From a virus: a stretch of DNA of 44,659 nucleotides. The translations under genes were made by a program, and so were the position numbers. Under the pieces are notes generated by a model that had not been told where the DNA came from, ran no database searches, and saw only the letters and a program-made list of their open reading frames with translations. Where the stretch lies: positions 1 to 44,659 of the IMG/VR virus record IMGVR_UViG_3300001783_000060. One strand, 5' to 3'. This document shows positions 26,406 to 37,116 of this stretch, one piece after another. The stretch's first letter is position 1, and each line of letters begins with the position of its first letter.

Positions 26406-26774
26406 ATGAACACCACCACGCAGATCCCCGCCACCCAGAACGAAGCCTGGGGCTTTTGGGGCACGATGAACGAACACGCCAGCGCCGCATGGCCCCTGGC
26501 GATGACCGCCATCTCGGACGCCACCAGCCAGCCCCTCGAATCGGTTCAGGTCTTCCTCGACAGCCGCCACGGACGCCATTTTGCAGACGACGTCCAGAAC
26601 GGGCTCTATCAGGGCCAGCCCCTGGCGGGCGCGATCAACGCCGCCACCCAACGCTGGATGGGCTGGACGATTGGCCGCCAGACCAGCAAGCAATACGGCA
26701 TCCCGCGCGGCCTGCCTTACCTGACGGGCTTTGTGATTCACTGCGAGATCGTCGACGAGTCGCTCGCCGCCTGA
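26406..26774 (+). CDS. Accessory phage protein, unrecognised
   Basis: 122 aa, starting MNTTTQIPATQNEAWGFWGT. It includes SAAWPLAMTAISDATSQPLESVQVFLDSRHGRHFADDVQNGLYQGQPLAGAINAATQRWMGWTIGRQTSKQYGIPRGLPYLTGFVIHCEI. Homologues of this pattern (FLDSRHGRHFADDV.N......L..AI..A...WM.W.I) occur as small proteins on plasmids and islands, but I know no function. GAAGGAG lies 6 nt before the ATG. Its last 37 nt overlap the 3' end of the minus-strand methyltransferase gene, tail to tail. Confidence 0.75.
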   Translation: MNTTTQIPATQNEAWGFWGTMNEHASAAWPLAMTAISDATSQPLESVQVFLDSRHGRHFADDVQNGLYQGQPLAGAINAATQRWMGWTIGRQTSKQYGIPRGLPYLTGFVIHCEIVDESLAA

Positions 26775-28000
26775 TCAAGCAACGCGCCATCCGCCTCGCG
26801 GGTAGCCTGCTTCCCGGTGAAATCTTCCCACCGACGCACGATCACATCAACGTACTTCGGATCGAGTTCGATCAGCCGCGCGATGCGGCCTGACTTTTCC
26901 GCCGCGATCAGCGTCGTGCCAGAGCCACCGAAGGGATCGAGCACCACGTTGCCGGGGCGGCTCGAATTGCGGATCGCGCGCTCGACCAGCTCGACCGGTT
27001 TCATCGTCGGGTGCAGGTCGTTCTTCTGCGGCTTCTTGATGTTCCAGACGTCGCCCTGGTCGCGGTCACCACACCAGTGGCGTGTCGCCCCCTCGGGCCA
27101 TCCATAGAGGATCGGCTCGTACTGGCGCTGGTAGTCGGCACGACCCAGCGTGAAGGTGTTCTTGGCCCAGATGATGAAAGTCGACCATTTGCCACCGGCG
27201 GCGCGGAAGGCAGCCTGCAGCACATCCAGCTCGCTGGAGGACATCGCCACGTAAATGCCGCCCCGGCAATGCGCCACTGTGGGCGTCAGCGCTGCCAGCA
27301 GGAAGTCGTAGAAGCCATCCCCCAGGTTGTCGTTCAGGATCGCGCGATCCTTACCGCGCATCTTGTCCTTGGCGCTGTTGGCGTAGTTCACGTTGTACGG
27401 CGGGTCGGTGAAGACCATATCCGCCAACGCGCCTTGCATCAGGCGGTCGTAGCTCTCGGCCACGGTTGAGTCGCCGCAAAGCAGCCGGTGCTGGCCCATG
27501 ATCCAGACATCGCCCGGACGCGAGATGGGCGTCTCGCTGACTTCGGGCACCGCATCCTCAGCGGTCTGCCCCTCGTTGTCCGGCTCGTCACCCGCGATCA
27601 GTTCGGCCAGTGCGTCGGCGTCGAACCCGGTGATGTCCAGATCGAAACCATCGAGCTGCAAGGCTTCGAGTTCGATCCGCAGCATCGTGTCGTCCCAGCC
27701 CGCGTTCTCGGCGATGCGGTTGTCTGCAATGACTAGGGCCCGGCGCTGCGTCGGGCTCAGATGATCCAGTACGACGACCGGCACCCGCTCCAGACCCAGC
27801 TTCTGGGCGGCGGCGAGCCGTCCGTGGCCAGCGACGATGATGCCGTCACTGCCCGCCAGGATCGGATTGGTGAATCCAAACTCCGCGATGCTGGCAGCGA
27901 TCTGCGCCACCTGCTCCTCGGAATGGGTGCGCGCGTTGCGGGCGTAGGGCAGCAACTTGCCGGTGGGCCACTGTTCGATCTTGTCGGCCAGCCAGTTCAT
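26738..28000 (-). CDS. ParB-like domain + DNA methyltransferase fusion (DPPY type)
   Basis: 420 aa. Residues 12-130 form a ParB-like nuclease/CTPase fold (LLPYARNARTHSEEQVAQIAASIAEFGFTNPIL, then IIVAGHGRLAAAQKLG). The methyltransferase follows with GDVWIMGQHRLLCGD, catalytic motif IV TDPPYNVNY (DPPY 199-202), and the AdoMet motif LDPFGGSGTTLIAAE near the C-terminus. The order IV before I is the beta class; DPPY favours adenine-N6 methylation. No restriction enzyme gene is near, so it probably marks phage DNA against host restriction. It is translationally coupled (ATGA) to the methyltransferase before it, a clear paralogue. Confidence 0.93.
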   Translation of the reverse strand: MNWLADKIEQWPTGKLLPYARNARTHSEEQVAQIAASIAEFGFTNPILAGSDGIIVAGHGRLAAAQKLGLERVPVVVLDHLSPTQRRALVIADNRIAENAGWDDTMLRIELEALQLDGFDLDITGFDADALAELIAGDEPDNEGQTAEDAVPEVSETPISRPGDVWIMGQHRLLCGDSTVAESYDRLMQGALADMVFTDPPYNVNYANSAKDKMRGKDRAILNDNLGDGFYDFLLAALTPTVAHCRGGIYVAMSSSELDVLQAAFRAAGGKWSTFIIWAKNTFTLGRADYQRQYEPILYGWPEGATRHWCGDRDQGDVWNIKKPQKNDLHPTMKPVELVERAIRNSSRPGNVVLDPFGGSGTTLIAAEKSGRIARLIELDPKYVDVIVRRWEDFTGKQATREADGALLDQAASDSSTISQ

Positions 28001-29430
28001 GCCATCACCTCGGCATCCAGGGTGGTGGCGCGCTCAGCAGCCACCTGCCCGAAGGACTGGCCGGTGGCGATCAAGGTGACCGGCACGCCGGGGTGGTTCT
28101 GCTGGAAGCGTTTGATGGCGACGTCCACGTACTCCGGAGCGATTTCAACGCTTCGGCAGATGCGGCCTGTGCGCTCGGCGGCCAGCATCGTCGTGCCGCT
28201 GCCGCCGAAGGGCTCGAACACGACATCGCCCGCATCCGTGTAGGCCTCGATCACGAACTCCGGCAGCGCCACCGGGAACACGGCTGGGTGGTCGATGTCC
28301 TGGCCGATCTTGCCCTTGTGGCGCATCACGCGGATCACCGAGTCGGGGATGCGGGTGTCTTGCGTGGGCAGCCCCTTGTGCGTCCAGCCGCCCACCTCGC
28401 CATCCTTGCCGCGCATCGCGGTGGACGACCCGTCGGCGCGCAGGTGGGATTCCTGGCCGGCGTGCTTGCAGGGGACGATCTTGTTCGGCTTGCGGCTCTC
28501 CCGGTTGAAGTGGAAGACGAACTCGAAGCTCGGCGCGAAGCGGCCTGCCCAATCGCCGGGCATCCCCGGCCCCTGATCCCAGACGTACCATGCAAAGCGC
28601 CGCCAGCCCTGCTGGCGCATCCAGGATAGCCAAGCGTCCCAGTACGGGATCACTTCGTTATCGCGGTGGATCAGACCCAGGTTGACCAGCACCTGACCGT
28701 CGCCTGCCATCGGCAGGTGCGCGAACACGCCGCGCATCAGGCCGTCCCAATCGGAGATGCCACCTGAGGTGTAGTCGCGCTGGTTGCCGTAGGGTGGCGA
28801 GGTGAAGCACAGGCGAGAGACTTCACCCTGCATCAGCGAAGCGACCACGTCCCGGTCGGTGGCGTCGCCACAGATCAGGCGGTGCGCGCCGATGGCCCAG
28901 ACATCGCCGGGGCGAGACACCGCCACGACGGGTGCTTCCGGCACGTCGTCTGCGGCATCCGGTTCCTCGGTGTCCGGCTCTGCGTCGGCATCGGCATCGG
29001 CATCGGCGTCGGCGTCGGTCACGTCACCGGTGAGCAGTGCCTCGATCTCGGCATCCTCGCAACCGGTCAGAGCGAGGTCGTATCCGGCCTCGGACAGATC
29101 GGCCAGTTCCAGGGCCAGCATCTCCTCGTCCCAGCCCGCATCCAGTGCCAGCCGGTTGTCGGCGATCACCAGTGCCCGCTTCTGCGCGACGGTCAGATGG
29201 GCCAGTTCAATCACCGGCACCTGATCCAGCCCGAGCTTGCGCGCAGCGGCCAGACGCCCGTGCCCGGCGATGATGCCGTTGTCGCCATCGACCAGGATCG
29301 GGTTCGTCCAGCCGTACTCGACGATGCTGGCCGCGATCTTGGCGATCTGGCTCTCGGCGTGCGTGCGCGGATTGCGGGCGTAGGGAATCAGCGCCTCGAC
29401 CTTGCGGTACTCGACGTTGAGCGTGTTCAA
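27997..29430 (-). CDS. ParB-like domain + DNA methyltransferase fusion (SPPY type)
   Basis: 477 aa. The ParB-like domain (about 10-125: ALIPYARNPRTHAESQIAKIAASIVEYGWTNPIL, IIAGHGRLAAARKLG) is joined by an Asp-Ala repeat linker (about 138-150) to a beta-class methyltransferase with DVWAIGAHRLICGD, motif IV TSPPYGNQRDY (210-214), and EPFGGSGTTMLAAE. SPPY is frequent in cytosine-N4 enzymes, so its target may differ from that of the downstream paralogue. The likely start is TTG at 29430 (no ATG nearby), with no clear ribosome site; a start further in cannot be excluded. A terminator-like hairpin ends 13 nt upstream. Confidence 0.9.
   Translation of the reverse strand: MNTLNVEYRKVEALIPYARNPRTHAESQIAKIAASIVEYGWTNPILVDGDNGIIAGHGRLAAARKLGLDQVPVIELAHLTVAQKRALVIADNRLALDAGWDEEMLALELADLSEAGYDLALTGCEDAEIEALLTGDVTDADADADADADAEPDTEEPDAADDVPEAPVVAVSRPGDVWAIGAHRLICGDATDRDVVASLMQGEVSRLCFTSPPYGNQRDYTSGGISDWDGLMRGVFAHLPMAGDGQVLVNLGLIHRDNEVIPYWDAWLSWMRQQGWRRFAWYVWDQGPGMPGDWAGRFAPSFEFVFHFNRESRKPNKIVPCKHAGQESHLRADGSSTAMRGKDGEVGGWTHKGLPTQDTRIPDSVIRVMRHKGKIGQDIDHPAVFPVALPEFVIEAYTDAGDVVFEPFGGSGTTMLAAERTGRICRSVEIAPEYVDVAIKRFQQNHPGVPVTLIATGQSFGQVAAERATTLDAEVMA
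28982..29018 (-). repeat. Hexanucleotide repeat coding an Asp-Ala linker
   Basis: Six in-register GC(A/G)TCG units on the plus strand encode alternating Asp-Ala between the ParB-like and methyltransferase domains. The tract could vary in copy number by slippage without breaking the frame. Confidence 0.75.
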
Positions 29431-30407: not shown

Positions 30408-30872
30408 TCACACCTCCTGCGTCTCGATGGCCCAATGCAGCAGGGCCAGCGCGTCGGCCTCGTTGTCATCGACTGGGGTGTGACCACGTTCGCGGACGGA
30501 CGTGATCATTTCGTCCTTGCCCGCATTGCCTTTGCCGGTCGCGTGCTTCTTGATCGTGCCGATCGGAACGCCCTGGTACGGAATGTTGTGATGCTCACAC
30601 CACGCGGTCAGGTGCCCCATGAAGCCGCCGTAGGCGTGCGCCGCATCAACGCCCGCGTGCCGCCGAACTTCCTCGAAGAACACCGCGTTGATGTGATTGC
30701 TGGCCGAGAGGAGTTCGTTGAGCCAGCGCTTGAATCGAAGGAATCGCATTCCGCCGCCTTCGAATCGCTGCGGCTTAAAGTGCTCCGTGCCGCTGGTGAT
30801 GGTGCCGTCCAGGTGCTGCAGAGCCCACCCGGTGTGTGTGCCCAGATCAAGGGCCAGGATTGTCGTGTTCAT
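30408..30872 (-). CDS. RuvC-like Holliday junction resolvase / RNase H-fold nuclease
   Basis: 154 aa. The start LALDLGTHTGWAL places the first catalytic Asp at D9, FFEEVRR gives the Glu (67/68), and DDNEADALALLHW supplies the last acidic residues (136-140). This is the RuvC fold as found in small phage resolvases that trim branched DNA before packaging. GGAG lies 8 nt before the ATG at 30872. The gene is separated from the primase by 128 nt that contain a long inverted repeat. The alternative upstream start at 30962 lies within that repeat and was rejected. Confidence 0.85.
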   Translation of the reverse strand: MNTTILALDLGTHTGWALQHLDGTITSGTEHFKPQRFEGGGMRFLRFKRWLNELLSASNHINAVFFEEVRRHAGVDAAHAYGGFMGHLTAWCEHHNIPYQGVPIGTIKKHATGKGNAGKDEMITSVRERGHTPVDDNEADALALLHWAIETQEV

Positions 30873-30893: not shown

Positions 30894-30993
30894 GGGCGAG
30901 TGACGGATGCGACGGGTTGTCAGGACAACGTCCTTTACGTGCGCGCACGTGTAGAGCGTCAATCAGGAAACCCGTCAAATCCGTCACTCGCCC
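30894..30993. repeat. 25-nt inverted repeat around a 14-nt palindrome, primase-RuvC gap
   Basis: The left arm (30894-30918, starting GGGCGAGTGACGGA) and right arm (30969-30993, ending TCCGTCACTCGCCC) pair over 25 positions with only 2 mismatches. Between them lies a perfect 14-nt palindrome, ACGTGCGCGCACGT, at 30937-30950. TGACGG is also directly repeated within the arms. The structure fills almost all of the non-coding gap. It could be a folded mRNA element, a cruciform or a replication-origin-like site; it has no T-run, so it is not a simple terminator. Confidence 0.8.
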
Positions 30994-31000
30994 GGATTGG

Positions 31001-33292
31001 TCAGTCATCGCGGTAGGGGTAGGCGTTGCTGTACGGCTTGGGCCTGAGGGCGATGCCCGCGATGGCGCGAGCCCCTCCGGTCAGCCGACACTTCTCGAAC
31101 TTGCGAGTCGCCATCAGCTCCGAGAACCGCTTGACCGAACCCACGTACTCGCCCGCTCGCTCGGCCCATTCGCGCCAGTCGGCGAACAGTTCGGAGACGC
31201 CTTCGCGGTGGGACTTGGCCAGCAGACAGCGTTCTTCGATCCACTGCCCGAGCGCATCCTCGGCCTCGAAATACTCCTCGGTCGCCGACACCACGCTGGC
31301 GGGCGGCTTCAAGCCCTGGCGCTGCCAGCGGCTGCAGCCCTCGACGGCCCACGCCAAAATCCCATCGCGCTCCTTGAGCAACTTCTCGGTCAGCCTGCCG
31401 TCGCGGCGCTCGGGCGGGATCGTCACCGTGAACGGGATCAGGTGCAGTCGGCGCTTCATGGCCTCGTCGACATTGCGGATCGACGGCTTGTGATTGCCCG
31501 CGATCACCAACTTGAACTGCGGCAGGTACTCGAAGAAGTCCTGGCGCATAAAGCGCGCGGACACCTTGTCGCCACCGGTGATGGCCTTGACCTTGGACTC
31601 GTTCCAGCGCCGCCCTTGCTCGGTTTCGATGGATGACACGAAGCGTGCGCCGCGCAGCCCTGCGAGATCGGTGGGGTGCCGGTCGTTTCGCGCCTCCATG
31701 AACGTGTCCATCGGCGCGTTGGCCGCGTAGTCGCCCAGGATGGTGGTCAGCACGTTGACGAACACCGACTTGCCGTTCGCGCCCGTGCCGTACAAGAAGA
31801 ACAGCGCGTGTTCGCTGGTGACGCCCGTCAGGCAGTAGCCAACCATCAGCTGCAGGTAGGCCATCAGATCGGCGTCGCCACCGGTGACATCCGTGAGGAA
31901 GGCTCGCCACGTCGGGCAAGCGCTGTCCGGATTGCCCTGCGGAGTAGCCGTGGTCACCTTGGTCATTCGGTCGTCCCGCCGGTGCGGGCGCATCCGGCCG
32001 GTGCGTAGATCGACCACGCCACCGGGGGTGTTCAGCGCCCAGACATCGGCGTCCCATTCCTCGGCGGTGGATGCGTGCTTCGGGTCAGAGCGCGCGATCT
32101 TTTCAACCGACGAAATCGTGGCGGAACTGGCCAGCTTGCCCTTGAGCCTCGGCGTGTCCGCTTTCAGCGAGGCGTTGCGGCAGATGCCCCTGGAAAGATG
32201 CGACACGTAGAGCACCTGATCGGGATTCCAGCGCACACCCGTCCAGACCAGCCACTTGCCCCACAGGGCACAGTAGCGCCAGTCTTCGCCATAGCGGCGG
32301 GTGAAAGCGCTGGACAGGCCATCCTCGGTCGTCCAATCAATGCCCGTCAGCAAGTCTGGCGAAGGCGCTTCCTCCACCGAGCGCATCACCGGCATCCGCT
32401 CGCCGACGGCCAGAAAGCCACCGACATCGAAACCTTCGGGAATGGCATCTGCAGCGTCCCACCCCTCCGGCTTGTCGTCGGGTGGCATGAGGATGGCGAC
32501 CGAGGTCGCGCCTGCCTGCAAGATCGCCTGCGACGCGCGGTCGGCGTAGTCCCACCCTGGCGCATCGCGGTCGGGCCAGATCAGCACCGTCTTGCCAGCC
32601 AGTGGCGACCAGTCGGTCTTGTCGACCGGGGCATTGGCACCGTGCATGGCGGTGGTGGCCACCACGCCGCTGGCGATCAAGGCCTGCGCGCACTTCTCGC
32701 CCTCGACCAGGACGACGTGGCTGGCCGCAGCGACGCCCGGCTGGTTGAACAGCGGGCGCGGCTCAGGCGGGGCCATCTTGCGGCGCTTCGCGTCCCACGG
32801 TCGGAATTCCTTCTTGCCTCCCGGTGGGTCATAGCGGTAGACGACGGCGATCAGCTTGCCACCGGCATCGAAGTAGTCCCACTTCGCCGTAGCCGGGCCG
32901 AGGTCGTCGACAGGCGCTTCCTTCTTCGCCTTGCGCACTGGCACCGACCGCGACCGCCCGAGCAGATCGGCAGCTTCATCCAGCACGCGAGGGAAATCGG
33001 TGTGGACGTTCGCACCGAGATAGGCCGCGATCAGGGCGAAGATGTCGCCGCCATCGCCGGTGGCACGATCCGTCCACAGACCGGCCTTCTCACCTTCCAG
33101 CACCACCTCGAGGCTGTCACCTGGACTGCCGAGGATGTCGCCGATCAGGAACTTGCCACGGCGCTTCTTGCCAGCCGGAAACATCGTGGTCAGCACCGAC
33201 TCCAGACGCGCAAGCAAGTCGGCGCGAATCTCGTCTCGTTCAGATTCCCTGTTGTGCTCCGCAGGTTGGGTGGTGTCGTTGAAGTCGATCAT
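31001..33292 (-). CDS. Phage primase-helicase (Toprim + D5/P4-type)
   Basis: 763 aa. The N-terminal about 130 residues have a primase-like opening with RGKFLIGDILGSPGDSLEVVLEGEKAGLWTDRATGDGGDIFALIAAYLG. A Toprim domain follows with VVLVEGEKCAQAL (EGEK 197-200) and VLIWPDRDAPG. The C-terminal half has a D5-type N-domain and an SF3-type helicase with Walker A GTGANGKS (502-509), LRGARFVSSIETEQGRRWNESKVKAITGGD and LVIAGNHKPSI. It would prime and unwind phage DNA. GGGAGCCG precedes the ATG at 33292, which overlaps the preceding HTH gene (ATGA). Length is normal for this class. Confidence 0.95.
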   Translation of the reverse strand: MIDFNDTTQPAEHNRESERDEIRADLLARLESVLTTMFPAGKKRRGKFLIGDILGSPGDSLEVVLEGEKAGLWTDRATGDGGDIFALIAAYLGANVHTDFPRVLDEAADLLGRSRSVPVRKAKKEAPVDDLGPATAKWDYFDAGGKLIAVVYRYDPPGGKKEFRPWDAKRRKMAPPEPRPLFNQPGVAAASHVVLVEGEKCAQALIASGVVATTAMHGANAPVDKTDWSPLAGKTVLIWPDRDAPGWDYADRASQAILQAGATSVAILMPPDDKPEGWDAADAIPEGFDVGGFLAVGERMPVMRSVEEAPSPDLLTGIDWTTEDGLSSAFTRRYGEDWRYCALWGKWLVWTGVRWNPDQVLYVSHLSRGICRNASLKADTPRLKGKLASSATISSVEKIARSDPKHASTAEEWDADVWALNTPGGVVDLRTGRMRPHRRDDRMTKVTTATPQGNPDSACPTWRAFLTDVTGGDADLMAYLQLMVGYCLTGVTSEHALFFLYGTGANGKSVFVNVLTTILGDYAANAPMDTFMEARNDRHPTDLAGLRGARFVSSIETEQGRRWNESKVKAITGGDKVSARFMRQDFFEYLPQFKLVIAGNHKPSIRNVDEAMKRRLHLIPFTVTIPPERRDGRLTEKLLKERDGILAWAVEGCSRWQRQGLKPPASVVSATEEYFEAEDALGQWIEERCLLAKSHREGVSELFADWREWAERAGEYVGSVKRFSELMATRKFEKCRLTGGARAIAGIALRPKPYSNAYPYRDD

Positions 33293-33543
33293 TCGGCTCC
33301 CTCGACAGGTGCGTCCGCATCATGGGAATCACGGCCCTGAACGGCGGTGGTACGCGTGGCCCACGCAGAGAGTTCGGACAGCCGGTAGCGCACCAGACCA
33401 CCCATCAGGTAGTGCGGAATCCGGTACTTGGTGCGCATCGCGTGGTCGGCGAACCAGTAGTACGGCAGGCGCAACGCGGCGGCCGCCTGCTTGGCATCGA
33501 TCATCGGCTCGATGCCGGTGGCCGGGGTGTTGTTGTCGGTCAT
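33289..33543 (-). CDS. Small HTH protein (AlpA/excisionase-like)
   Basis: 84 aa, starting MTDNNTPATGIEPMIDAKQA. The core MIDAKQAAAALRLPYYWFADHAMRTKYRIPHYLMGGLVRYRLSELSAW has the MerR/HTH_17 excisionase layout: helix-turn-helix followed by a small wing with a conserved (V/L)R(Y/F)...EL..W. The ATG at 33543 has GGAGAA upstream and overlaps the nuclease stop. It probably binds DNA at or near the replication module; in similar phages such genes often sit just before the primase gene. A role in replication initiation or transcription is inferred. Confidence 0.75.
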   Translation of the reverse strand: MTDNNTPATGIEPMIDAKQAAAALRLPYYWFADHAMRTKYRIPHYLMGGLVRYRLSELSAWATRTTAVQGRDSHDADAPVEGAE

Positions 33544-34277
33544 GCTTGTGTTCTCCAGCAGCGGTCTTGCCACGCGCACATCCGGCACTCGAAGTGGGTC
33601 GGGTCATTGAAGGCGCGCGGCAGGAGATCTCCCGCTTCGGTCGCCGTGATGACCTTCACCGCCCGATCAGACATTCGCTGGGCCAGGGCTGCGTCAAAGG
33701 GCACGGCCTCGGTGTAGATCTCCATCGTGTCGGCGTTGAGCGCCGTGAAGATCGCCGGGTGCTCGTGCAGTTCGAGATAGGCTTGGTAGATCGCCACTTG
33801 CGCGGCGTATACGGGCTTGGCCACGGCGAGCCGGTTCTTCTCCAGCTCGCGCCAGGACTTCATGCCGAGGCACTTGTTTTCCCAGAGCGCCGGGTAGGCA
33901 AAGCCCTCCGGGCCATCGACGATGACGCCGTCGATGTGGCCCTGCAGACGGCCATCAGCCACGGAGAAGCCAAACTGCTCGCCATCGGCCCTGCGGGTAC
34001 GCAAGTCGAAACCGGCGTCGCGCAGCCACGCGACCATGCAGTCCTCCATGACGTGGCCGCGCTCGAAGATGCGCAGCATCCGGCCCGGGGTGTCCCGGCC
34101 GTGATCGACGGGAGCCTTGGCGTACTCAAACTGCAGCGCACGCTCGCAGGCAGCGCCCAACCGCGAGGCACCAAGGTACTGGCGCTCGGACTGCTGGGCT
34201 CGCGCCCGCTGCATCCCGGCGTCGACCAGCGCAGTGATCTGGCCCGAGATGCTCGAAGTGGAGTTGAAGTCCATCAT
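33540..34277 (-). CDS. PD-(D/E)XK nuclease with Fe-S cysteines (Cas4/RecB-like)
   Basis: 245 aa. The PD-(D/E)XK active site reads GHIDGVI (D116) and ALWENKCLG (E133, K135). One cysteine at C45 (GAACERAL) and three at the C-terminus (ECRMCAWQDRC) form the four-cysteine iron-sulphur pattern of Cas4/AddB-type exonucleases. YAAQVAIYQAYLEL is the conserved QxxxY helix. Together with the Sak4-like ATPase and ssDNA-binding-like protein upstream, it likely forms the phage recombination system. A Met-Met start at 34277 with GGGGAAG upstream overlaps the previous stop. Confidence 0.88.
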   Translation of the reverse strand: MMDFNSTSSISGQITALVDAGMQRARAQQSERQYLGASRLGAACERALQFEYAKAPVDHGRDTPGRMLRIFERGHVMEDCMVAWLRDAGFDLRTRRADGEQFGFSVADGRLQGHIDGVIVDGPEGFAYPALWENKCLGMKSWRELEKNRLAVAKPVYAAQVAIYQAYLELHEHPAIFTALNADTMEIYTEAVPFDAALAQRMSDRAVKVITATEAGDLLPRAFNDPTHFECRMCAWQDRCWRTQA

Positions 34278-34774
34278 GGCTTCTTCCCCTTCGGTTCTTC
34301 CCAAGGCAGGTCGTCCTCCAGATCCGCGAACGGATTGGCTGCACTCGGTGTCATGGGGTCGGGCGTCGGCGTCATGCCGCGCACGGGCGGGTACTTGCTC
34401 GCCTCGTGGTGCTCAACCATCGCCTTGGTGTAGCACGTGACGATGGCGTCGATCACCTGCAGCGCCTCGGCTTCTGAGTAGTTGCCCAGCGGTTTGGTGA
34501 AGCCGATCTCTCCTGCCGCCTCGCCGAAGGACTTGAGGCACTTGCGCATTGCGGCCAGCTCGATATCAGAGGGATCGATCATGGCGACCCCCTTGATGTC
34601 GCTGCGACCATCCTTGGCGCGCAGCCAGTTGCCGTACATCGCGTGGAACGCGGATTGGCAGCGCTGCGAGCAGAACACCCAGTCGATGGGGTAGCGCCGG
34701 GGATCGCCGACACCGTGTCGGTTGTCGGTGTGACCGAATCCCCGGGCCTGTCGTTTGCAGACCCAGCATTTCAC
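34274..34774 (-). CDS. Zinc-finger-like protein (DUF6511-like)
   Basis: 166 aa from GTG at 34774, which has GGAGG upstream and overlaps the P63C stop (GTGA). The N-terminus MKCWVCKRQARGFGHTDNRH, followed by VFCSQRCQSAFH, gives a CxxC...CxxxC zinc-binding pattern. A helical part (DIELAAMRKCLKSFGEAAGEIGFTKPLGNYSEAEALQVIDAIVTCYTKAMVEHH) and an acidic Pro-rich tail follow. I recall this as DUF6511, a phage early family of unknown job. It lies between the P63C protein and the Fe-S nuclease in the recombination cluster, so a DNA-binding role is plausible. Confidence 0.75.
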   Translation of the reverse strand: MKCWVCKRQARGFGHTDNRHGVGDPRRYPIDWVFCSQRCQSAFHAMYGNWLRAKDGRSDIKGVAMIDPSDIELAAMRKCLKSFGEAAGEIGFTKPLGNYSEAEALQVIDAIVTCYTKAMVEHHEASKYPPVRGMTPTPDPMTPSAANPFADLEDDLPWEEPKGKKP

Positions 34775-35625
34775 GCCCCCTCCTCAAAGTCTTCGGCCAG
34801 CAGCGCCAGCTGCAGCGCGCCGCCAGCGAAGGCCGCTTCACAGCGGCGGTCGAAGTCGCGGTAGCAGGTCGAGCTGCGCGCAATGGCGGTGACCGCGTGA
34901 ATCTGCGTTTCCAGACGGGCGAGGCCCTGATCGGACAGCCACTGGTGGTGCTTCTGCGAGATGCCCTTGCGGGCGCGAATCTCGTCGATCAGCGTGGCGG
35001 GCAGCACCGGGCCGTAGACCCAGCGCTGCGTGATCTGACCGACAACGTGGGGCGGGTTCTGGTCGTGGCCCTGGTACTTCCAGCCGAACAGCCGGTAGAG
35101 GGCGCGGTAGTAGTCCGGGTGGAAGCGGCGCTCCCACGAAGAGCACGACTGGCGCAGCAGCTTGGAGATCAGTTCCTGCAGCGCGTCAGGCGCGCGGTGG
35201 TACTGGTAGCCCGTCGCCTCGTCGATCAGCGCGACCTCGCCGGTGGTGGCCAGCGCGCGCATGATCTTCATGCAATTGGGCACGATGCCCTGGCGGGCCT
35301 TGTGCAGCGTGCCGTTGATGGCCGCGCTGACCACCGCCGACGCGACGTCGGCAATGATCCCGGCCGGGAAGAACTGCGCCTGCCGACCTGACGGCAACAG
35401 AATCGGCTCACGAGTTTTCTCCAATGCCGACAAGGAGTTAGGAGCGAAGTCGGCAAGAAACCGGGCAAATCGGCCACCCTTGTGCGTTTCGTGGAAGCCC
35501 AGCAGCTTGGCCAGTTGACGACGAACGTAGCCACGCTCGCCGCCCTTGAGGACGACGGCCTCGCATTGCAGATCGCCGAAGCGCACGACGCCGTAGTGAC
35601 TGGCAGTGAGGACGGATGCATTCAT
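34771..35625 (-). CDS. P63C domain protein
   Basis: 284 aa. The C-terminal half (LISKLLRQSCSSWERRFHPDYYRALYRLFGWKYQGHDQNPPHVVGQITQRWVYGPVLPATLIDEIR) is the P63C domain, found in phages and prophages; its biochemical function is unknown. The N-terminal half (VVRFGDLQCEAVVLKGGERGYVRRQLAKLLGFHETHKGGRFARFLADFAPNSL) resembles a Bro/KilA-type beginning. GAGGAG stands 6 nt before the ATG at 35625. It is placed between the ssDNA-binding-like and zinc-finger genes of the early operon. Confidence 0.85.
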   Translation of the reverse strand: MNASVLTASHYGVVRFGDLQCEAVVLKGGERGYVRRQLAKLLGFHETHKGGRFARFLADFAPNSLSALEKTREPILLPSGRQAQFFPAGIIADVASAVVSAAINGTLHKARQGIVPNCMKIMRALATTGEVALIDEATGYQYHRAPDALQELISKLLRQSCSSWERRFHPDYYRALYRLFGWKYQGHDQNPPHVVGQITQRWVYGPVLPATLIDEIRARKGISQKHHQWLSDQGLARLETQIHAVTAIARSSTCYRDFDRRCEAAFAGGALQLALLAEDFEEGA

Positions 35626-36267: not shown

Positions 36268-37116
36268 TTACTCCTGAGATTCGATGTGTGCGGGGTTGGC
36301 GGCGCTGGCTAGCGCGGGGACAGCGCCCGCGCACTTGGCGATCAGCGCGCCGAGATGCGGCGGCTCCAGCAGGTCGAGACGACCGCTGCGGTCTTTGGCC
36401 GGGAAGCCGTAGGGATTGACGGTGTGCGTGATGAAGGCGCGGTAGGAACTGCCGTCCTCGGCCTTGATCTCGGCCAGCGTCACGACCTCATCGACGATGC
36501 CGGGCAGCTCCAGGCTGGTCTTGCTGCCTTCGATCTGCGGGACGAACACCTTGCGATTGAAGTCATCCAGTCGCTCATCGAGGATCGCCACGAACACAAC
36601 GTTCTTGCCACGGGCGTGCTGCAGGTGGGTCAACGCGCCGATCATTTCCTGGCCGAGCAGCCCGTAGGCCGCGCGCAGATCGGGCTTGCCGGAACGATCA
36701 CTGACCGCCCCGGGCTGCGTCTTGCACCACGCAAAGCACTGGCGAGACAGTTGCGTGATCGAGTCAAGGAAGAAGGTCTGGTAGCGACCGAGCTGCGTCG
36801 CATCGCCAAACTTCTCGATGACGTGGTCGTAGTGCGCCTGCGAGAACGCGCTCTCCGGCGGCAGCGACTTGTCCGGGCCCGCAAGGAACACGAAGAAGTC
36901 GCGGCTCTCGGGCCAGGACGCCGGGCGGATGGTGTCGCCCGGCCAGTCGGCGACCGCCAAGTCGCCTGCCTCGATGTCAAGGAACAGTGTGGTGGCGGGG
37001 TCGAGGTCTTTGAGCCGAGACGTCTTGCCGATGCCGGACTTGCCCAGCATCAGCAGCTTCACGCCCTTGCGCTCGGCCATCCGCTCGACGGCGGACACGA
37101 TGGGTAGCCGCTTCAT
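36268..37116 (-). CDS. RecA-like ATPase (Sak4-type recombinase/annealase)
   Basis: 282 aa. Walker A is GKSGIGKT (25-32) and Walker B is YQTFFLDSITQL (D118), with conserved TTLFLDIEAGDL and LTHLQHARGKNVVFVAIL. This AAA_24/RecA-core layout corresponds to phage Sak4 proteins, which promote single-strand annealing together with an SSB-like partner, here the next gene. The start at 37116 overlaps the preceding stop (ATGA). A general ATP-binding protein is the conservative alternative. Confidence 0.88.
   Translation of the reverse strand: MKRLPIVSAVERMAERKGVKLLMLGKSGIGKTSRLKDLDPATTLFLDIEAGDLAVADWPGDTIRPASWPESRDFFVFLAGPDKSLPPESAFSQAHYDHVIEKFGDATQLGRYQTFFLDSITQLSRQCFAWCKTQPGAVSDRSGKPDLRAAYGLLGQEMIGALTHLQHARGKNVVFVAILDERLDDFNRKVFVPQIEGSKTSLELPGIVDEVVTLAEIKAEDGSSYRAFITHTVNPYGFPAKDRSGRLDLLEPPHLGALIAKCAGAVPALASAANPAHIESQE

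Follow-up and report, generated by a model that had tools for sequence, protein, structure and literature searches.

SaPIs and PICIs have an origin located 3' of the initiator gene, in which two sets of iterons surround an AT-rich core (PMC6092414); the Rep protein of SaPI5 is of the D5_N type. Cch2, the D5_N-type helicase of SCCmec, binds direct repeats downstream of its own gene through its C-terminal domain (PMC7581432). The iterons of SCCmec are three 5-nt units, and the binding of Cch2 there is independent of inverted repeats. As for satellite phage P4, its alpha protein is a primase-helicase initiator with a winged-helix origin-binding domain, and the C-terminal tail of a related primase-helicase family resembles both this domain and Rfx1 (PMC10516667). 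In Streptococcus phage Sfi21 (AF115103), an origin is annotated directly after a DUF5906/Pox_D5 protein, and inverted tandem iterons of the TTAGTTACT type surround a low-complexity core.

The window analysed here, 44,659 nucleotides long, is the entire IMG/VR virus record IMGVR_UViG_3300001783_000060. Directly 3' of a primase gene, as in the SaPI/PICI arrangement (PMC6092414, PMC7581432), it harbours a palindromic element that is, with a probability of about 0.84, the phage's replication origin, recognised by the adjoining primase-helicase. The features of the locus are as follows.

30894..30993, no strand: palindromic iteron element, proposed replication origin (repeat search and relatives)
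30901..30909, plus strand: outer iteron TGACGGATG
30910..30918, plus strand: inner iteron CGACGGGTT
30936..30953, no strand: alternating purine-pyrimidine core of 18 bp, containing the 14-nt palindrome 30937-30950
30969..30977, minus strand: inner iteron TGACGGGTT
30978..30986, minus strand: outer iteron TGACGGATT
31001..33292, minus strand: D5_N/DUF5906 (SF3, P4-family) primase-helicase, proposed initiator (Pfam and fold matches)
31046..31255, minus strand: winged helix at the C-terminus of the primase (residues 680-749), candidate reader of the iterons (structure model)
31130..31132, minus strand: Lys721 codon; this residue opens the recognition helix and covaries with iteron base 6 (covariation)
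30408..30872, minus strand: downstream RuvC-like gene, a neighbour that is not required (phrog_159)

The 25-nt arms of the element, 30894-30918 and 30969-30993, pair with 2 mismatches and enclose a perfect 14-nt palindrome, ACGTGCGCGCACGT, at 30937-30950; taken as a whole, its two 50-nt halves are 74% complementary with zero spacer. It begins 7 nt past the primase stop codon and is the top inverted repeat of the window, with a score of 20 vs best scores of 13-14.5 in three whole-window Markov-1 simulations. In each arm, the 9-bp iteron TGACGGATn is present in two tandem copies; those on the plus strand start at 30901 and 30910, those on the minus strand at 30986 and 30977. The arms are mutually inverted, with the copies pointing inward from both ends, and a scan of both strands found no other [TC]GACGG pair at 9-bp spacing in the window. 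Direct reading of the sequence revealed no T-run after the element, which does not qualify as an intrinsic terminator. The original prediction had described the arms with their mismatches, the palindrome and the missing T-run correctly, and the TGACGG repeats that it likened to iterons are indeed tandem 9-bp units, two per arm. Domain and family matches also agree with the placement that it gave, between primase and RuvC-like genes.

Relatives were gathered by the primase alone, so that the element itself was not selected for. In 151 of 152 of them, an inverted repeat with a score of at least 12 is found directly 3' of the primase gene; control stretches mostly score 7-11. The original prediction was to be abandoned if related phages lacked the repeat or conserved it merely as coding sequence, and this is not what we found. 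A separate DNA-pattern scan yielded at least 119 viral stretches, nearly all of which adjoin a related primase, and a direct DNA similarity search with the element in the phage collection gave zero matches. The hosts named in the relatives' genome records are chiefly Beta- and Gammaproteobacteria. In most loci the element lies within a co-directional operon, just ahead of the next start codon. It is immediately 3' of the primase in nearly all relatives and displaced in L120, L155, L196 and L198; in the first two, 3-4 kb separate it from the primase, and its neighbours are a methyltransferase gene on one side and the divergent head of the primase operon on the other. In three other loci (L417, L419 and L422), the primase stop codon is inside the left arm. 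Near the distant primases of the actinophages TforTroy, Samora and Bernstein, no matching element was found, and the repeat present in Samora has the look of a terminator stem.

Several individual loci deserve mention. In Mycobacterium phage Milly (L282), an inverted TGGACAGAT iteron repeat is found downstream of the primase at 2617-2744, within annotated gene 73, possibly a wrong gene call that covers an origin. In L158 (1633-2561), the left arm (GTGACGGATG) is present twice, with one copy fused to internal primase sequence, which suggests either that recombination took place at the iteron or that the assembly is faulty. In L120 (3485-5416) and L155 (2534-4372), a QueC-like region is part of large proteins encoded between the displaced element and the primase.

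Depending on the family, the tandem iterons of both arms bear TGACGG, TGACGC or TGACCG. In 43 of 92 cases, the tandem copies of an arm have the same bases 5-6, more than in any of 2000 shuffles (mean 18.9, maximum 32), a figure that is inflated by relatedness. The distant relatives L196 and L198 have GGACAGATG-type repeats, three per arm. In five loci (L347, L337, L353, L357 and L361), the iteron found after the primase is devoid of TGAC and reads approximately CGGCGCAGCCGGCGCA; residue 721 of the primase is Arg there, in agreement with C at base 6.

The adjoining primase matches the Pfam families D5_N (1.5e-36) and DUF5906 (8.9e-10). Its structure model comprises an SF3 helicase core that resembles ASFV PrimPol, vaccinia D5 and mpox E5 in fold, and the presence of both D5_N and SF3 helicase domains places it among the D5/SF3 (P4-family) primase-helicases. 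The model also contains a C-terminal winged helix, to which the RFX DNA-binding domain is the closest of the solved structures, with a modest E-value of 0.0023; the origin-binding domain of P4 alpha has a related fold (PMC10516667). That this domain reads the iterons is suggested by their joint variation. Among 192 relatives, Lys at position 721 occurs with TGACGG in 112 and Arg with TGACGC in 78, Lys is found with GC in 2 and Arg with GG in 0; the exceptions to the rule are L303 and L297. This pattern was first spotted by eye in the alignment and then tested on an enlarged set and on all columns. On a tree built without the C-terminal domain, there are 21 changes at residue 721 and 19 at iteron base 6, and the base follows the residue in 12-13 of 14 supported independent switches, with 0 opposing (p ~0.0002). 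Position 721 ranks first among 425 variable columns (12.5/13), the top six of which are all within the winged helix. Of 33 distinct proteins with a third type of helix, TSRWL, 29 have TGACCG in both arms of their element, and the iteron spacing is 10 bp rather than 9 bp in 30 of 32. The covariation, the column ranking and the TSRWL pairing constitute strong indirect evidence that the primase binds the iterons.

By comparison with known systems, the best reading is that of an origin of the SaPI/PICI (pri-rep-ori) kind in which an alternating CG-rich core replaces the AT-rich one. As in SaPIs and PICIs, two iteron sets flank a core, and the recognition of iterons by the C-terminal domain of the initiator may have its counterpart here, to which the coevolution of residue 721 with iteron base 6 lends indirect support. 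The core itself differs. In 48 sequence clusters, it harbours an alternating purine-pyrimidine run with a median length of 21 bp vs 7 bp in control stretches, mostly CG-rich and roughly centred in the palindrome (relative position 0.43-0.58). The inner region averages 56% GC vs 64% for the loci and is below the locus average in 47 of the 48 clusters, which does not make it AT-rich in the SaPI/PICI sense. As one defining feature of PICI origins is thus lacking, we classify the element as a variant that would work like a PICI origin rather than as a PICI origin proper. It also differs in that its 9-10-bp iterons form a single compact palindrome of ~100 bp, and in its carriers, which are not satellites but tailed phages, prophages and plasmids. 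The Sfi21 origin shares its position and inverted iteron layout with the element. Nevertheless, Sfi21 is a Firmicute phage whose core is AT-rich, whose iterons have another sequence and whose Prim-Pol domain is encoded by a separate gene. The open-access literature yielded the SaPI/PICI and SCCmec precedents; no description of the element was found there, which does not prove that none exists.

Circular plasmids whose annotated replication gene encodes a P4-family primase have inverted arrays of 9-10-bp iterons, often as their strongest repeat. The plasmid iterons differ in sequence from those of the phage element and are laid out alike. A Thermaerobacter plasmid of 8456 bp has three tandem copies of GTGAAC per arm, and pGEOTH02 has four copies of a 9-bp iteron per arm. 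In pMNOD03 the repeat begins at the primase stop codon, and an alternating core is also present. In several other plasmids, the score or visual inspection revealed inverted iterons 3' of the primase. No switch in GC skew was detected at the element in 72 dereplicated loci (p = 0.32). An origin with iterons was among the options of the original prediction, and conservation, the covariation of iterons and primase, the plasmids and Sfi21 strongly support it.

By analogy with SaPI Rep and SCCmec Cch2, primase-helicase hexamers might load on the two iteron arrays so as to face each other and open the core region, from which bidirectional unwinding and priming would start, as proposed for those two proteins. 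It is a guess that strand opening is located in the CG-alternating core. More tentatively still, one might envisage that a class of origin is widespread among phages and plasmids whose core, opened by an SF3 primase-helicase, is an alternating purine-pyrimidine, CG-rich stretch prone to form Z-DNA or a cruciform, and not an AT-rich element. A one-residue code, Lys or Arg at position 721 for G or C at base 6, would then largely determine which iterons are recognised. We regard this generalisation as rather doubtful.

Could the element be a site bound by the primase for another purpose, as an operator through which it controls the operon that encodes it or the gene downstream, or as a copy-control or incompatibility site? 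Coevolution indicates binding rather than origin activity, and in L155 and L120 the location between divergent genes is operator-like. An operator nevertheless fits poorly inside a co-directional operon just before a start codon, where most loci have the element, and an SF3 helicase-primase would be an atypical repressor. Furthermore, plasmids require an origin, and in several of them no other repeat is as strong as the element; its Sfi21 counterpart is annotated as an origin. We therefore deem this explanation unlikely.

Two other proposals of the original prediction, a folded mRNA element and a structure cut by the resolvase, fare much worse. A structured RNA in the polycistronic primase-RuvC mRNA, acting on stability, processing or translation control, would account for the strong folding z-scores (-6.3 for the plus strand and -7.2 for the gene-sense strand) and for the conserved position between two co-directional genes. 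A sense-strand RNA hairpin under selection is expected to have more G.U pairs than A.C mispairs. On the sense strand of the 48 clusters, G.T mispairs number 82 vs 83 for A.C, with no RNA-type preference for G-U, and the sense strand folds better than the antisense strand in merely 19 clusters. The placement of the element between divergent genes, or across the primase stop codon, in relatives also argues against an RNA, as does the coevolution of the recognition helix with the iterons. A search of the window with Rfam gave no family at the gathering threshold, with weak hairpin-type matches far below it. The mispair counts and the two kinds of placement contradict the mRNA proposal, which we have discarded as highly improbable; as judged from these comparisons, the element is conserved as a double-stranded DNA site and not as an RNA hairpin. 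As for a substrate of the adjoining RuvC-like resolvase, be it a cruciform or a recombination site, the palindrome is long and a RuvC-like gene adjoins the element in most loci. However, no such gene was found in seven loci that still have the element (L111, L112, L114, L120, L155, L184 and L191), so that a resolvase-cut structure is not needed, and the arms keep an iteron sequence and spacing that would be superfluous for cruciform formation. We have rejected this proposal too, with as little probability left to it as to the RNA.

Other genes surround the putative origin. Two adjoining N6/N4 methyltransferase genes, each encoding a ParB_N-like domain, are found near the element (window 26738-28000 and 27997-29430), and in L120 (6450-7715) and L155 (109-1392) a methyltransferase gene of the same type is located beside the displaced element. 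Methylation may be connected with the origin. Upstream of the primase gene are genes for a Cas4-like exonuclease, a P63C-domain protein and an AAA_24 ATPase (window 33540-34304, 34771-35625 and 36268-37116), which probably form a recombination-replication module.

With this element and its primase, a large set of prophages and some plasmids whose replication start is unannotated acquire a probable origin and a probable initiator. The very similar organisation in prophages and plasmids would extend the SaPI/PICI-type layout well past satellites. The correspondence between Lys or Arg in the primase and G or C in the iteron makes initiator-origin specificity directly testable by single substitutions, and the CG-alternating core poses the question of how strands are opened without an AT-rich element.
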